From Thiotrichaceae bacterium (GTDB taxonomy: Bacteria; Pseudomonadota; Gammaproteobacteria; Thiotrichales; Thiotrichaceae), in contig JALXAX010000051.1 of NCBI GenBank assembly GCA_026991755.1, positions 1-64,000 of the forward strand: a stretch of 64,000 nt of DNA. The letters are read 5' to 3'. The notes below the pieces were generated by a model. It saw nothing but the letters and a program-made list of their open reading frames with translations. It searched no databases and was not told the DNA's origin. Below, in pieces: positions 40,022-44,923 of the stretch. Position 1 is the first letter of the stretch. Each line of letters starts with the position of its first letter. The translations under genes and the position numbers were made by a program.

Positions 40022-40181
40022 AAGAAGCTCTGATTAAGTCGGTGGAATTTATCGACAGATGAAATTGTTCAGTTTTTGCTTAAAAATGGACTAATAGTCG
40101 CTCTATTAGGGAGATTTTTAAGCAAAAACTGGGCAATTTCAGCGTCGATAAAATCGCTCATGACTTGATCAGATTCCTTAA
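40022..40181. repeat. Repeat family C, diverged copy
   Basis: 160 bp with ends AAGAAGCTCTGATTAAGTC and GACTTGATCAGATTCCTT. Arms CAGTTTTTGCTTAAAAAT and ATTTTTAAGCAAAAACTG enclose the centre CTAATAGTCGCTCTATTAG, a rearranged form of the AATAGCCG hairpin of other copies. It lies between ArsR and the LysM protein gene. Confidence 0.75.
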
Positions 40182-40200: not shown

Positions 40201-40929
40201 CTACTTAGGCACTTTCAGCTTTTGACCCACCACAACAATGTTGGGGTTAGAGATAATGTCTTTATTAGCCTCGTATAAACGAACATAGTGATTACCGCTA
40301 CCATATACTCGTAGCGCTATTCGATACAAGGAATCACCTTTCTGCACAACTACCGTATCAGGTAAAGCTGGGTTATTAACTTTGTTATCTCCTAGCTCTC
40401 CCGTAGATGCAGACTTAACAGATGAAGAGAACTCCTCAGCCTCTTTCTGCTGTGCCTTTACATAAGAGCTTTCTGGCTCTTTTTCTGTTGAAGCGCCTGA
40501 ACCAATTAACTTATCCAGTGACTGTGAAGCTTTCTTCACCTTGTCAGTATCTTCTTCTGTCTCTGCTATATCCTGCATTGCTGCACTCACCGCCGAGCGA
40601 AGGTCATCCATTTTTACACCATCTAATAAAGCAGAAGTCACTAATCCTTCAAGTTTAGCTTCAGTCTCTTTTTCATCTTCAGCAGTATTACCACCCAGTA
40701 TCCCTGATAACTTCTTCGCAACAGACTCCGATAAATCATCAACATTAGCAGTCTCTGTTACCTCGGGCTCTTTTTCATTCGGCCTATCTGATGCTACTTC
40801 TTTCATACTAGTTTCACTAGCTTCTGCAGTCAAAGCATCTAGTAACTTATCTGAATTATCACTTTCAGCTAATGCCAGACTGCTAAACATGATGGTACAA
40901 AGGCTTACTGCAATTACTTTTTTATTCAT
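40201..40929 (-). CDS. Periplasmic LysM protein (last gene of the GTPase operon)
   Basis: 242 residues. The signal peptide (MNKKVIAVSLCTIMFSSLALA) is followed by a long Glu/Ser/Lys-rich helical, probably disordered middle, then one C-terminal LysM domain (TVVVQKGDSLYRIALRVYG ... IVVVGQKLKVPK). Binds peptidoglycan and may anchor the system to the wall. Last of six genes reading leftward; 26 bases after the rhodanese gene. Confidence 0.85.
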   Translation of the reverse strand: MNKKVIAVSLCTIMFSSLALAESDNSDKLLDALTAEASETSMKEVASDRPNEKEPEVTETANVDDLSESVAKKLSGILGGNTAEDEKETEAKLEGLVTSALLDGVKMDDLRSAVSAAMQDIAETEEDTDKVKKASQSLDKLIGSGASTEKEPESSYVKAQQKEAEEFSSSVKSASTGELGDNKVNNPALPDTVVVQKGDSLYRIALRVYGSGNHYVRLYEANKDIISNPNIVVVGQKLKVPK

Positions 40930-40955
40930 TTTTATTTCTCCGCCCTAAGGATGTT

Positions 40956-41615
40956 TTAAGGTGTAACTGTTGTCAATCCTAACTGCAACCATGATTGCAT
41001 ACCTGCACGATACCAAAATAACTTTTCTTCAGGATAACCAATTTTGGAAAGGTTCCTAAGAGCCTTAGGTGATTGCCCACACCATGATCCATTACAAAAA
41101 AGCAATAAGCGACGGGCGTTACTAAAATCCCATTGACCTTCTTTCTCAGTTGCGCCTAATAGCTTCAGTATTTTTATCGTATGCTTACTCTCCAATCCCT
41201 TACTTAAAACAGTGAATGGAATATTGACTGAACCTGGGATAGTCCCTTTTTCGAACCAAGCAGGCATTCTTGCATCAACCAACAAGCCTTTATTATTTTT
41301 AACATCATTATCTAAGAATTTGAGTAACTCTAATTCACCAACCGTTTTAATACCTGGCGATAATTCAATAGGGTTAATACAAAACGGAGGGCACTCACGT
41401 GACGTTTTTGCAAAGCTATTGGTTAGCTTATGACTAGTATCTTGGTTACGCTCAATACGAACTGTTTTTCCGTTATGTTGAACATCAACATAAGGTATAT
41501 CAGCTGTTATTTTTACTTTGTTTTCTGCTTGTGAAACAGCAGGCACCAAAGATAGTGCAATAGTTAACACAGCCCCCAAACTCATCCAATAGGTATTTTT
41601 TTTATAATTTCTCAT
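40956..41615 (-). CDS. Periplasmic rhodanese-like protein with CPPFC motif
   Basis: 219 residues. A signal peptide of about 30 residues ends near VSQAEN. The rhodanese domain's active loop is LLFCNGSWCGQSP, with Cys at the catalytic site. An additional CPPFC motif lies near residue 75. Expected to handle sulfane sulfur or act as a redox sensor in the periplasm. I chose ATG 41615 (GAGGAA upstream). Sits in the GTPase-Roadblock operon, which links that system to sulfur chemistry; this link is inferred. Confidence 0.85.
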   Translation of the reverse strand: MRNYKKNTYWMSLGAVLTIALSLVPAVSQAENKVKITADIPYVDVQHNGKTVRIERNQDTSHKLTNSFAKTSRECPPFCINPIELSPGIKTVGELELLKFLDNDVKNNKGLLVDARMPAWFEKGTIPGSVNIPFTVLSKGLESKHTIKILKLLGATEKEGQWDFSNARRLLLFCNGSWCGQSPKALRNLSKIGYPEEKLFWYRAGMQSWLQLGLTTVTP

Positions 41616-41663
41616 GTCTTCCTCGCTCTGCCTCTGAATAAAGCTACTCACAGGCTCAATTAA

Positions 41664-41966
41664 TTACTCAGGAGCCTCTACAGACTTCTTCATCTCTTTT
41701 TCAACAGCTTGTTGAATTTCATCTTGCACTGAATCCGCAATAACGCCTTGAATTGAACTTTTCAAATCAAACAAATTACTGCTATCTGTTTCACTTTTTC
41801 CATTTTCAACAGGAGTAGTCGCCAGCTCTTCCTTTACTTCTACTTCGGCTGACGAATCAGCCGACCCTCTCAGCATGGTTGCATCCGATGCATGTGACGA
41901 ATAAAACCAATATCCACCAATAGCAAGCAATATGAACATAGCACCTAGCAGAAACACTTTATTCAT
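41664..41966 (-). CDS. Small membrane-anchored protein (100 aa)
   Basis: N-terminal span MNKVFLLGAMFILLAIGGYW, then an acidic, Ser/Glu-rich periplasmic part and a C-terminal helix (IQGVIADSVQDEIQQAVEKE). No family recognised. ATG at 41966 follows GAGAGG at good distance. Lies 13 bases after the receptor gene, 48 before the rhodanese start. Confidence 0.75.
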   Translation of the reverse strand: MNKVFLLGAMFILLAIGGYWFYSSHASDATMLRGSADSSAEVEVKEELATTPVENGKSETDSSNLFDLKSSIQGVIADSVQDEIQQAVEKEMKKSVEAPE

Positions 41967-41979
41967 GATCAACAACCTC

Positions 41980-43161
41980 TCACCTAGATCTCTTCATTAA
42001 TATTCTCATAGACTTTCTCAACAACTCTATTGAATGAGCCACATCAGCGACCTCATCTTTAGTATCAACTTCAATAGAAGTATCCATATCTCCTTGGCTT
42101 AGCTTTAACACGCTATCTTTTAAACTAACTAATGGGCGAGTTATTGAGTTTGAAAAGGTAATTGCCAACATTAAGGCTAATAATAATGCGGCCAGCCCTA
42201 TAGCAAGAAAAACGAGCAGATAGTCTTGAAGTGGCTGAAATAAAGCACTCTTAGATACAACACTAAAAAGGGTTCCTAAAGAATGTTCTTTTTCTTGGAC
42301 GGCAATGGGGTTGTAAACTAAAATATCATCAGCTGTTTCTATATAATCCAGCTTCTTTACTGCTTTCATCTGCTCAACTAGATCAGCCTTCTCTTTGAAA
42401 AGATTAGCCCCTGTATCCAAGTCATTTTTACCACCCCATCTCTTTTTCTCATCAGGGTGATAATAATAAAACCCCTGCTGATCAACAAAGAGAAGCTCCT
42501 CACCTGACGCACCCTGCTCTTTAATGATATCGATGATTTTATTTGCATCGACATTTAGAACTGCAACTCCTAATAGATCATCATTTTTATCATACACAGG
42601 GGTTGAATAACGAATAGTTGGTAAGTAAGGTTGAACAACTTCTCCTTTTTCTCTGTTTAAATCTAAACGAGAAATAAACAACTCACCCTTTTCAAGTTCA
42701 AGTGCATTGTTAAAGTAGTAGCGTGATGCTTTATTCTGTAAATGGGTGTCAGAGACATTTTGAGAATGCCCGTTTACCCTATCAATTCTTACAACTTCTT
42801 GCCCTTCTGCATCAATAAACCTCACTTGCGTATATATTTTTTTCTGCTCAGAAAACTTTTGCAAACTTGATCTTAAGTTACTCAGCAACAAACGCTGCGT
42901 TCGACTACCTGCTGGCTCTGAAGAGGACAAGAACAAGTGCAATGCGTTAGAATCACGTAAAAAGAAAAGATCACTTCCCACACCATCTAACAGGTTTTCA
43001 ATACGCTCTTGAATCAAGCTAACCTTATTAACATGAGAAGCTAGTACATTTTCTTTAAGCACTTTCGAGGTCGAGTACAAGCTATAACCTCCGATGAGAA
43101 CCACAGGCACAAGTGTTACAATAATCAGTACTAACAGTAGCTTATTTCTTATTTTATTCAT
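41980..43161 (-). CDS. Cache-HAMP receptor without output domain
   Basis: 393 residues. Membrane span 1 at about 8-28, a periplasmic double-Cache-like region (for example VRFIDAEGQEVVRIDRVNG, LLFVDQQGFYYYHPDE), span 2 near 310-338 and a HAMP domain (ITRPLVSLKDSVLKLSQGDM ... DEVADVAHSIELL). The protein ends right after HAMP, so it lacks kinase, GGDEF or chemotaxis output. The signal must pass to another protein, most likely the Roadblock/GTPase pair encoded upstream in the operon. Confidence 0.88.
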   Translation of the reverse strand: MNKIRNKLLLVLIIVTLVPVVLIGGYSLYSTSKVLKENVLASHVNKVSLIQERIENLLDGVGSDLFFLRDSNALHLFLSSSEPAGSRTQRLLLSNLRSSLQKFSEQKKIYTQVRFIDAEGQEVVRIDRVNGHSQNVSDTHLQNKASRYYFNNALELEKGELFISRLDLNREKGEVVQPYLPTIRYSTPVYDKNDDLLGVAVLNVDANKIIDIIKEQGASGEELLFVDQQGFYYYHPDEKKRWGGKNDLDTGANLFKEKADLVEQMKAVKKLDYIETADDILVYNPIAVQEKEHSLGTLFSVVSKSALFQPLQDYLLVFLAIGLAALLLALMLAITFSNSITRPLVSLKDSVLKLSQGDMDTSIEVDTKDEVADVAHSIELLRKSMRILMKRSR

Positions 43162-43230
43162 TCTTTTCCTTTTTTTTCCGTACCTAATATACAGCCGTAC
43201 TAATTATTTCTTAGTTAACTGCTTACCTGA

Positions 43231-43875
43231 CTATCCCACAATCAACTTAATCTGTTCGGCAAATTTTTCTCGTTCACCATCTGAATCCAGCTCAGCCTGA
43301 ATCAAAGAGACTAAGTGCTCTAGATTTTCTTCGTTTTGTACATGTTTTTGCTTCCATTGGTCACTACAGTCTTCTACAACAAAACGGGCAGCAGGCCCCA
43401 AGAAAGAAGTAAGTACCGCTGAGTATTGATCTAAAATTTTCTGCATGGAACCATTTGTCGGCACGACCAAAGCCGTACCTGTTGTAGACTCTAATGCTAA
43501 AGCCTGTGCTTCTTTTAACGCCGCCTCTTTTTTCTCTTCATCCAAAATATGTCTAATTTTTTCTGAAGCAGACTTTATTCCCATATGGATAAGAGGAAAG
43601 TTAATCTTTTTCTCTGTCAACAGAAGCGCAAAATAGGAGTCATGTAAACGAAAGGCAGCAAGATATTGGCTTGCTACAGAGAAATACATTTCGTTATGTG
43701 TTTTTTCTATGGATTCAAGCGCACTAAAAACCTGTTCAACCATTTCCGCTGTTTGCATCATTGATTCATTCTTATCTTCAGGAAAGGATGAGGCTAACTG
43801 TTCTCCATCTTTATAAAGAAAGGCATAATTGACTCCTCTTAACCTGCTGATATTTGTAATTACTTGCTCTAACAT
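43231..43875 (-). CDS. Roadblock/LC7-like protein (214 aa)
   Basis: The N-terminal part ISRLRGVNYAFLYKDGEQLA ... AAFRLHDSYFALLLTEK has the Roadblock/LC7 pattern: a strand with G-V and D/G-x-x-L-A-S. The C-terminal part (about residues 140-214: ILDQYSAVLTSFLGPAARFV) is a helical domain often found next to such proteins. Roadblock proteins act as GTPase-activating or scaffold partners of small GTPases (MglB with MglA, CvnB with CvnD). Lies between GTPase and receptor genes. Confidence 0.75.
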   Translation of the reverse strand: MLEQVITNISRLRGVNYAFLYKDGEQLASSFPEDKNESMMQTAEMVEQVFSALESIEKTHNEMYFSVASQYLAAFRLHDSYFALLLTEKKINFPLIHMGIKSASEKIRHILDEEKKEAALKEAQALALESTTGTALVVPTNGSMQKILDQYSAVLTSFLGPAARFVVEDCSDQWKQKHVQNEENLEHLVSLIQAELDSDGEREKFAEQIKLIVG

Positions 43876-43912
43876 GGTTTTAAATTACTCTGATGAATCT
43901 TATGACGGTTGA

Positions 43913-44923
43913 TTATATCCATTGCAACATATCTTCAATTTGCTGACTCAACGCAGGAACGGATGTTTTATGTAATGAAGCTACGCCTAATGAATGCTCA
44001 TCTTCTACAAAAACGGTCAGGTTATCGTCATCTGTTGCTCTAAGCATAATGCGATGTATTTCACCTAAATTAGCCACATCTTGAATAGCTGGCGTAATAC
44101 CCGATAAGAAAGCAATAAACTCATTTAAGTTTTCATCAAGAATAGTGGAATCGATGACTTCACCCATATCATTCGACAAAGAGACGCCTGTCACCCCATT
44201 AATCTTTGCTACTGCTGCCATTGATTTTTCAGTCAGCATGATTTTAGAACCCGATGCAGGAGCCACTGCCTCAACAGCGGGACTAGGTGTAGTTGACTCT
44301 TTCTTCTCTAACTCCGATGACTTCTCATTTTTGAGACTTGCAGTAAGAGGGAGGCTGCCTCCATGATCAGCGTTGGTTACACTAGCGCTGCTATTAGCTT
44401 TAGCTTGCTTCTGTTTTATCAGGCTGTTCACTAACCGATGAATATGCTCTTTATTTCGGGCATCAACCATCATCACATCAGCATCAATATTCAGCTCTTT
44501 AAGCCAAGTTTGATAATTTTCTATACTTGGTTCGCTTTTTATATCGGAGCGAGTAATACCTATAACAAAAGGCACTTCATCAACAAGGTCACGAAAATGA
44601 CTGGTGTAGTACTTTAAATCTCTAAAAGGATAATTCCGACAATTATCAAGCAAGAGTACTAAACCATGCGCTCCCTCTGAAATAATCTCCCACATAAAAT
44701 CAAAACGCTCTTGACCAGGCGTTCCATATACATGAGCCACATCTTCGTTATTAAGCTTGATAACACCGTAATCTAGAGCAACGGTTGTAGTTTGCTTTCT
44801 CTGGCTTGTTGTCAAGTCAGAGACAGGCGCATCCGTCTTTAGCGCTTTTTGATCCGTTAAGGAATTAATCGCAGTAGTTTTTCCAGCACCCACAGGGCCA
44901 GTAATAATTATTTTATATCTCAA
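43913..44923 (-). CDS. Small GTPase (COG2229/CvnD type) fused to a Roadblock/LC7 domain
   Basis: 336 residues from the TTG at 44923 (AGGA upstream; LRYKIIITGPVGAGKTT is the expected family start; a TTG at 44986 is also in frame). P-loop GPVGAGKT (9-16), switch II YGTPGQERFDFMW as in COG2229/CvnD proteins, then GLVLLLDNCRNYPF and an ITRSD in place of canonical NKxD. A Lys/Ser-rich linker leads to a C-terminal Roadblock-like domain (about 229-336: VAKINGVTGVSLSNDMGEVI). Having GTPase and Roadblock in one chain is unusual. First gene of the operon. Confidence 0.85.
   Translation of the reverse strand: MRYKIIITGPVGAGKTTAINSLTDQKALKTDAPVSDLTTSQRKQTTTVALDYGVIKLNNEDVAHVYGTPGQERFDFMWEIISEGAHGLVLLLDNCRNYPFRDLKYYTSHFRDLVDEVPFVIGITRSDIKSEPSIENYQTWLKELNIDADVMMVDARNKEHIHRLVNSLIKQKQAKANSSASVTNADHGGSLPLTASLKNEKSSELEKKESTTPSPAVEAVAPASGSKIMLTEKSMAAVAKINGVTGVSLSNDMGEVIDSTILDENLNEFIAFLSGITPAIQDVANLGEIHRIMLRATDDDNLTVFVEDEHSLGVASLHKTSVPALSQQIEDMLQWI

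Follow-up and report, generated by a model that had tools for sequence, protein, structure and literature searches.

The output part of a HAMP receptor normally belongs to the same polypeptide chain as the sensor. Roadblock proteins serve as GTPase-activating proteins, nucleotide exchange factors or scaffolds of GTPases, examples being MglB/RomY (PMC9481161) and CvnB/MfpD (PMC13343842). Among the MglA-type GTPases, those of Group 2 show the motifs NxFD in G4 and DAR in G5; Group 3 has a receiver/winged helix-turn-helix (wHTH)-like partner of unknown function, and GTPases of more than 240 amino acids (aa) were set aside in the same study (PMC4316618). Here we describe a block of six genes in a stretch of 64,000 nucleotides (the window; GenBank assembly GCA_026991755.1, contig JALXAX010000051.1, positions 1 to 64,000) from a gammaproteobacterium of the Thiotrichaceae. 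The block encodes, in this order, a fusion of a GTPase with a Roadblock domain (RB1), a second Roadblock protein (RB2), a dCache-HAMP receptor without an output part, a small membrane protein, a rhodanese and a LysM protein. RB2 ends in a domain of ~75 residues around an invariant GPxA; the domain has no Pfam name and is termed LGPxA here. We propose this domain as the link between output-less HAMP receptors and their effectors.

Results and discussion

Variants of the operon encode a second output-less receptor, which consists of a transmembrane (TM) segment, a Tll0287-like heme domain with CxxCH, another TM segment and HAMP (e.g. L053:8172-9047). A search for relatives of this heme receptor in 274 gammaproteobacterial genomes resulted in 17 loci. 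Unexpectedly, the RB2 profile matched kinases and cyclases neighbouring these receptors, and the matching part was the RB2 C-terminus. LGPxA was found to end Ser/Thr kinases and class III cyclases of other Gammaproteobacteria. Alignment of the RB2 domain to these C-termini by hhalign gave 97.7% (E 1.6e-12), compared to 1.8% for the control. The domain is mostly present in tandem in the kinases and as a single copy in the small cyclases of L198 and L201.

Receptors and LGPxA proteins were found side by side from both directions of search. Starting from the receptor, an LGPxA effector adjoins in 16 of the 17 loci; in the remaining one (L203) a short stretch ends within the receptor gene. The reverse search from LGPxA covered 229 genomes, 20 of which contained the domain, and yielded 21 loci. 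An output-less HAMP receptor, either of the heme type or of the dCache type resembling that of the window, adjoins in 20 of these, including one case (L244) that rests on a receptor with its frame broken into fragments. The one locus without such a receptor begins 145 bases from the end of its contig. Furthermore, 14 of 119 kinase matches in 13 genomes carry LGPxA, and all 14 adjoin an output-less HAMP receptor. Apart from Ser/Thr kinases and class III cyclases, the effectors comprise a DUF4388-like and an ACT-like protein, both with Pfam matches below the cut-off, and short proteins beside Cache-HAMP receptors without output, similar to that of the window (L245-L247; Table 1). RB2 proteins without LGPxA (L008, L107 and L108, the last near a contig end) have no adjoining receptor. 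In the window's genome no LGPxA was found beyond RB2. In two loci (L199:371-3856 and L202:3-3547) a single heme-HAMP receptor lies between two different LGPxA proteins, an arrangement that would suit a receptor shared by two effectors.

Adjacency and homology, both read from sequence, lead us to infer that LGPxA may couple output-less HAMP receptors to interchangeable effectors. Its frequent tandem arrangement in kinases would also suit a domain for oligomerisation or recruitment only, which clusters effectors while the receptor makes direct contact with the kinase domain or the surface of the Roadblock domain. This appears rather unlikely, since LGPxA is the only part found to be common to kinases, cyclases and RB2, and is confined to proteins beside output-less receptors.

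The window receptor ends a few residues past HAMP. Because its orthologues keep open frames of ~400 aa, the missing output is a conserved state rather than decay, and the output-less Cache-HAMP receptor described in the first-pass annotation is confirmed, including conservation of the truncation. The receptor length and tail persist over many species at 35-72% identity, the last 17 residues being the best conserved stretch of the window-type receptor. The sensor domain resembles histidine-kinase sensors (PF21623), as would be expected of a decayed histidine kinase in a declining operon; on the grounds of the conserved length and tail this explanation was rejected as having hardly any probability. 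The dCache and the Tll0287 heme receptors belong to different sensor Pfam families and possess the same kind of tail helix (IEL..R[RK]S[ML]). At the threshold used, the window genome contains four HAMP genes, and the other three run on into kinase-like output parts, as judged from the sequences. No kinase gene was seen adjoining the window operon.

All six genes are located on the minus strand (44923-40201) with intergenic gaps of 37, 69, 13, 48 and 26 bases, in agreement with the co-directional block with gaps below about 115 bases that had been noted before. The same genes in the same order were found in nine other loci of several different genomic settings, which is far beyond chance, and the block is kept in part in 26 further loci. 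The resulting 36 loci, window included, mostly derive from Thiotrichaceae; they are related by descent, and the genomes are drafts. RB1 directly precedes RB2 in all 36 loci and is fused to the GTPase in 24, standing alone in 12. A receptor follows RB2 in 27 loci. Receptor and GTPase occur together in 18 loci, the receptor without GTPase in 9, the GTPase without receptor in 6 and neither in 3, two of which end near a contig edge. The RB1-RB2 tree requires three switches of RB1 between the fused and the stand-alone form, and four changes in receptor presence. A relative of the receptor is present in 24 of 63 family genomes (the one in G060 being a different kind of protein, 766 aa long) and RB2 in 25 of 63; in a phylum-wide sample of 398, RB2 was restricted to the window's own genome. 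Two metagenome-assembled genomes (MAGs) are outliers, namely one of the Methylococcaceae, which has the complete block (L005), and one from the Betaproteobacteria, in which only the fusion and RB2 are present (L008); misbinning is possible for both.

Four genomes (G019, G020, G024 and G025) have a GTPase operon without receptor and a second operon composed of RB1, RB2 and two receptors without GTPase. This complementary distribution speaks for an action of the receptor on the Roadblock pair, the GTPase being one further, optional layer. A strict link between receptor and GTPase, as previously assumed, is not supported given these four genomes and the nine receptor loci without GTPase, separation of the two in relatives being what the first-pass annotation had named as evidence against it. 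The separability of the two, together with HAMP kinases elsewhere in the window genome, would fit a receptor whose partner is a separate kinase or chemosensory protein encoded elsewhere, with the operon comprising merely co-regulated envelope genes. We consider this quite improbable, as RB1, RB2 and receptor follow each other in this order in 27 loci whose flanks vary, and LGPxA ties RB2 to this receptor type.

In the window proteins Pfam recognized the small-GTPase domain, dCache/HK_sensor and HAMP, rhodanese and LysM. Neither of the two Roadblock domains reached the Pfam threshold when only the window protein was used. Pfam as the only basis for calling Roadblock domains was too weak, and relatives and folds were used instead. 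The Robl_LC7 match of the window RB1 is weak (E 0.026), 11 of 15 aligned members match (best 2e-4), and the RB1 part of the structure model shows the Roadblock order of elements. RB2 belongs to no Pfam family; its AlphaFold2 model (pLDDT 91) has the order helix, two strands, helix, three strands, helix and matches an Asgard Roadblock protein (6e-7) and MglB (3e-6). The relatives of RB1 and the fold matches of RB2 bear out the GTPase-Roadblock fusion and the second Roadblock protein proposed initially. Profile comparison of RB1 with RB2 gave a probability of 27%.

The G domain contains the P-loop GPVGAGKT, YGTPGQ without Asp in G3, TRSD without Lys in G4 and DAR in G5; RB2 has no G domain. In a tree without any Rag sequence the fused G domains form one group beside bacterial stand-alone GTPases, and the window G domain shares 55% identity with a stand-alone GTPase encoded in the same genome. 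The gene of the latter, an MglA-type GTPase, lies on contig C128 together with a genuine Robl_LC7 gene and one for a FimV/HubP-like protein (L020:5559-10899). In the betaproteobacterial MAG (L008:6365-9361) an FtsZ-family gene (PF00091, PF12327) is directly followed by genes for a GTPase-RB1 fusion and for a short RB2 that lacks LGPxA.

The relationship of the G domain to a GTPase from an operon with a FimV/HubP-like polar protein, and the FtsZ-family neighbour in L008, would be in line with an MglA/MglB-like polarity or motility switch, in which the receptor provides a positional cue and the LysM protein a wall anchor. However, genes for motility or pili were not found recurrently next to the window-type operon, and such a function appears improbable.

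Table 1. Features of the six-gene block and of related loci. Positions refer to the window unless a locus is named.
Feature	Position	Strand	Evidence or remark
G domain of the GTPase-Roadblock fusion (residues 1-172)	44408..44923	-	Motifs; 55% identity to stand-alone GTPase of the same genome
RB1, C-terminal Roadblock domain of the fusion (~residues 230-336)	43916..44236	-	Robl_LC7 in relatives; element order of model; separate gene in 12 related loci
RB2 Roadblock domain (residues 1-131)	43483..43875	-	Model pLDDT 91; matches to MglB and Asgard Roadblock
RB2 C-terminal LGPxA domain (~residues 142-214), proposed receptor-docking domain	43234..43452	-	Homology to C-termini of receptor-linked kinases/cyclases
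Output-less receptor: TM, dCache/HK_sensor (~35-292), TM, HAMP (336-387), end	41980..43161	-	
Receptor HAMP tail (residues 376-393, HSIELLRKSMRILMKRSR), proposed docking element	41983..42036	-	Best conserved stretch of the receptor
Small protein with N-terminal TM and periplasmic amphipathic tail	41664..41966	-	Variable among relatives
Exported rhodanese	40956..41615	-	Invariant CPPFC and CNGxWC; beside GTPase in all 18 loci having rhodanese
Exported LysM protein	40201..40929	-	Frequently paired with rhodanese
LGPxA fused to short uncharacterized proteins	L245:4118-5926, L246:5255-7213, L247:5155-6981		L247 weakly DUF4388-like
LGPxA fused to ACT-like domain	L244:526-1032		
~750-aa exported protein	L053:3555-5840, L055:1-2026, L057:4823-7078, L059:4868-7201, L063:3637-5904		

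Proposed signalling model

We regard it as fairly probable that the operon encodes a signalling unit leading from the receptor via the LGPxA domain of RB2 and the Roadblock pair to the GTPase. The results above establish the order of the genes, their domains and folds, the homology of LGPxA and its reciprocal association with output-less HAMP receptors. From these we infer direct contact between HAMP and LGPxA, pairing of RB1 with RB2, control of the GTPase and an output at the envelope. Sensor and output of such a transmembrane unit would be separate proteins. A ligand in the periplasmic dCache domain would change the conformation of HAMP, and the HAMP tail (IELLRKSMxILMKR) would be read by LGPxA at the RB2 C-terminus. 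RB2 would pair via its Roadblock domain with the GTPase-fused RB1, and the state of the receptor would set the control that the Roadblock pair exerts on GTP hydrolysis or nucleotide exchange. The output would be the nucleotide state of the GTPase (GTP or GDP), which would probably act on functions of the envelope, jointly with the rhodanese and the LysM protein. The first-pass annotation had suggested direct signalling from HAMP to the Roadblock/GTPase pair. The part of this suggestion that stands is a unit of receptor and Roadblock pair without an adjacent kinase, whereas the obligatory GTPase does not, and the likely contact is the previously missed LGPxA domain instead.

Several observations weigh against this model. 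Six loci with GTPase-RB1 and RB2 have no adjoining receptor, and in five of these RB2 keeps LGPxA, one being in a genome (G030) in which no window-type receptor was found. In L071 the dCache receptor lacks HAMP, which is present in the heme receptor next to it. The LGPxA domain of RB2 has an 8-residue insertion relative to the kinases, and the loci share descent.

In a broader scheme, output-less sensor-HAMP receptors would drive kinases, cyclases, DUF4388-like proteins and Roadblock/GTPase switches via LGPxA as a plug-in, with the window representing the GTPase version and a bacterial counterpart of scaffolded Rag-type signalling. We consider the chances of this generalization to be evenly balanced. 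The LGPxA domain and the class of LGPxA effectors with output-less HAMP receptors are proposed here as new. A shared docking domain, if true, would explain how output-less HAMP receptors signal, provide candidate partners for the newly described heme-Cache nitric oxide (NO) sensors, and offer a route by which a Roadblock/GTPase switch receives outside signals as well as a convergent parallel to Rag signalling. The model can be tested with one receptor tail and one domain of ~75 residues.

The rhodanese, which has two invariant cysteine pairs, is encoded in 18 of the 36 loci, all with GTPase, and in none of the 12 GTPase-less loci (hypergeometric p ~1.5e-5 by our own arithmetic, with loci counted without correction for shared descent). 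It stays with the GTPase even where the receptor is gone. Because the rhodanese tracks the GTPase more than the receptor, a role on the output side at the envelope is weakly supported over the input role assigned to it previously, which is not favoured. Pairs of rhodanese and LysM-type genes were also found without GTPase, Roadblock or window-type receptor genes (L175, L176, L177, L184 and L185), in L177 preceded by an ExeA-like AAA protein. Rhodanese and LysM proteins as evidence for a sulfur input were unsupported, the pair also being found without the other genes.

A scan for promoters and terminators resulted in sites no more frequent than in shuffled sequence. Directly downstream of the LysM gene lies a long perfect inverted repeat (40071-40130; arms AGTTTTTGCTTAAAAAT), which is unexpected by chance and possibly represents a terminator or a mobile repeat. 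In five genomes a gene for a large exported protein without Pfam family is located divergently beside the GTPase-less variant operon (Table 1).

Comparison with described systems

The arrangement looks undescribed, as had been supposed: open-licence literature on partners of output-less HAMP proteins and on Roadblock proteins in Thiothrix contained no earlier description. The conservons, or AGPS (CvnA-D; MfpB/C/D; PMC13343842, PMC4316618), likewise combine a membrane sensor, a Roadblock protein and an MglA-type GTPase in one operon, and their GTPases are alike in the unusual DAR of G5 and the absence of the G4 lysine. RB2 represents the CvnB-type Roadblock protein by fold match. The conservon analogy drawn in the first-pass annotation is fair to this extent, but the kinase-like sensor (CvnA) and the CvnC family are missing among the six proteins. 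Furthermore, the window GTPase and a Roadblock domain form one protein, LGPxA is present on RB2, and the host is a gammaproteobacterium. Of the Group 2 MglA motifs, the window GTPase has DAR in G5, and its G4 reads TRSD.

As in the MglA/MglB/RomY system (PMC9481161), two different Roadblock proteins accompany one Ras-like GTPase, and RB2 folds like MglB. The Roadblock domain next to the MglA-type GTPase is provided here by fusion to RB1. This fusion and the membrane receptor in the operon distinguish the window from that system, and no counterpart of Frz, RomR or RomX was seen. The L020 locus resembles the Group 3 MglA systems (PMC4316618); the window shares with it the G domain (up to 55% identity to the L020 GTPase), and L020 has a Roadblock gene nearby. 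Systems of this group differ in their stand-alone GTPase, their receiver/wHTH-like partner and the lack of a receptor.

Rag GTPases with Ragulator and the Asgard Rag-like proteins (PMC10933270; PDB 8yl2, 6jwp) share with the window a G domain followed by a Roadblock domain, a further Roadblock partner and a membrane scaffold. The top two structural matches of the fusion are Rag-type structures (8yl2, 6jwp), with poor full-length root-mean-square deviation because the domain arrangement differs. In contrast to Rag, the G domain of the window is bacterial, its partner is not a second GTPase, and a HAMP receptor is present. True kinship to Rag GTPases is not supported by G-domain similarity; because of its identity to the stand-alone GTPase of the same genome, the resemblance is taken as convergent.

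The second receptor of the variant operons resembles the sCache_heme (DUF3365/Tll0287)-HAMP NO sensor of Pseudomonas azotoformans (PMC12889525) in having CxxCH and no output. The combination of a Tll0287 domain with CxxCH and HAMP without output is present in the variant operons and not in the window operon. The passages of that paper considered here name no partner, and the terms 'operon' and 'protein kinase' are absent from its text. LGPxA effectors are proposed here as the partners of this output-less heme-HAMP receptor type.

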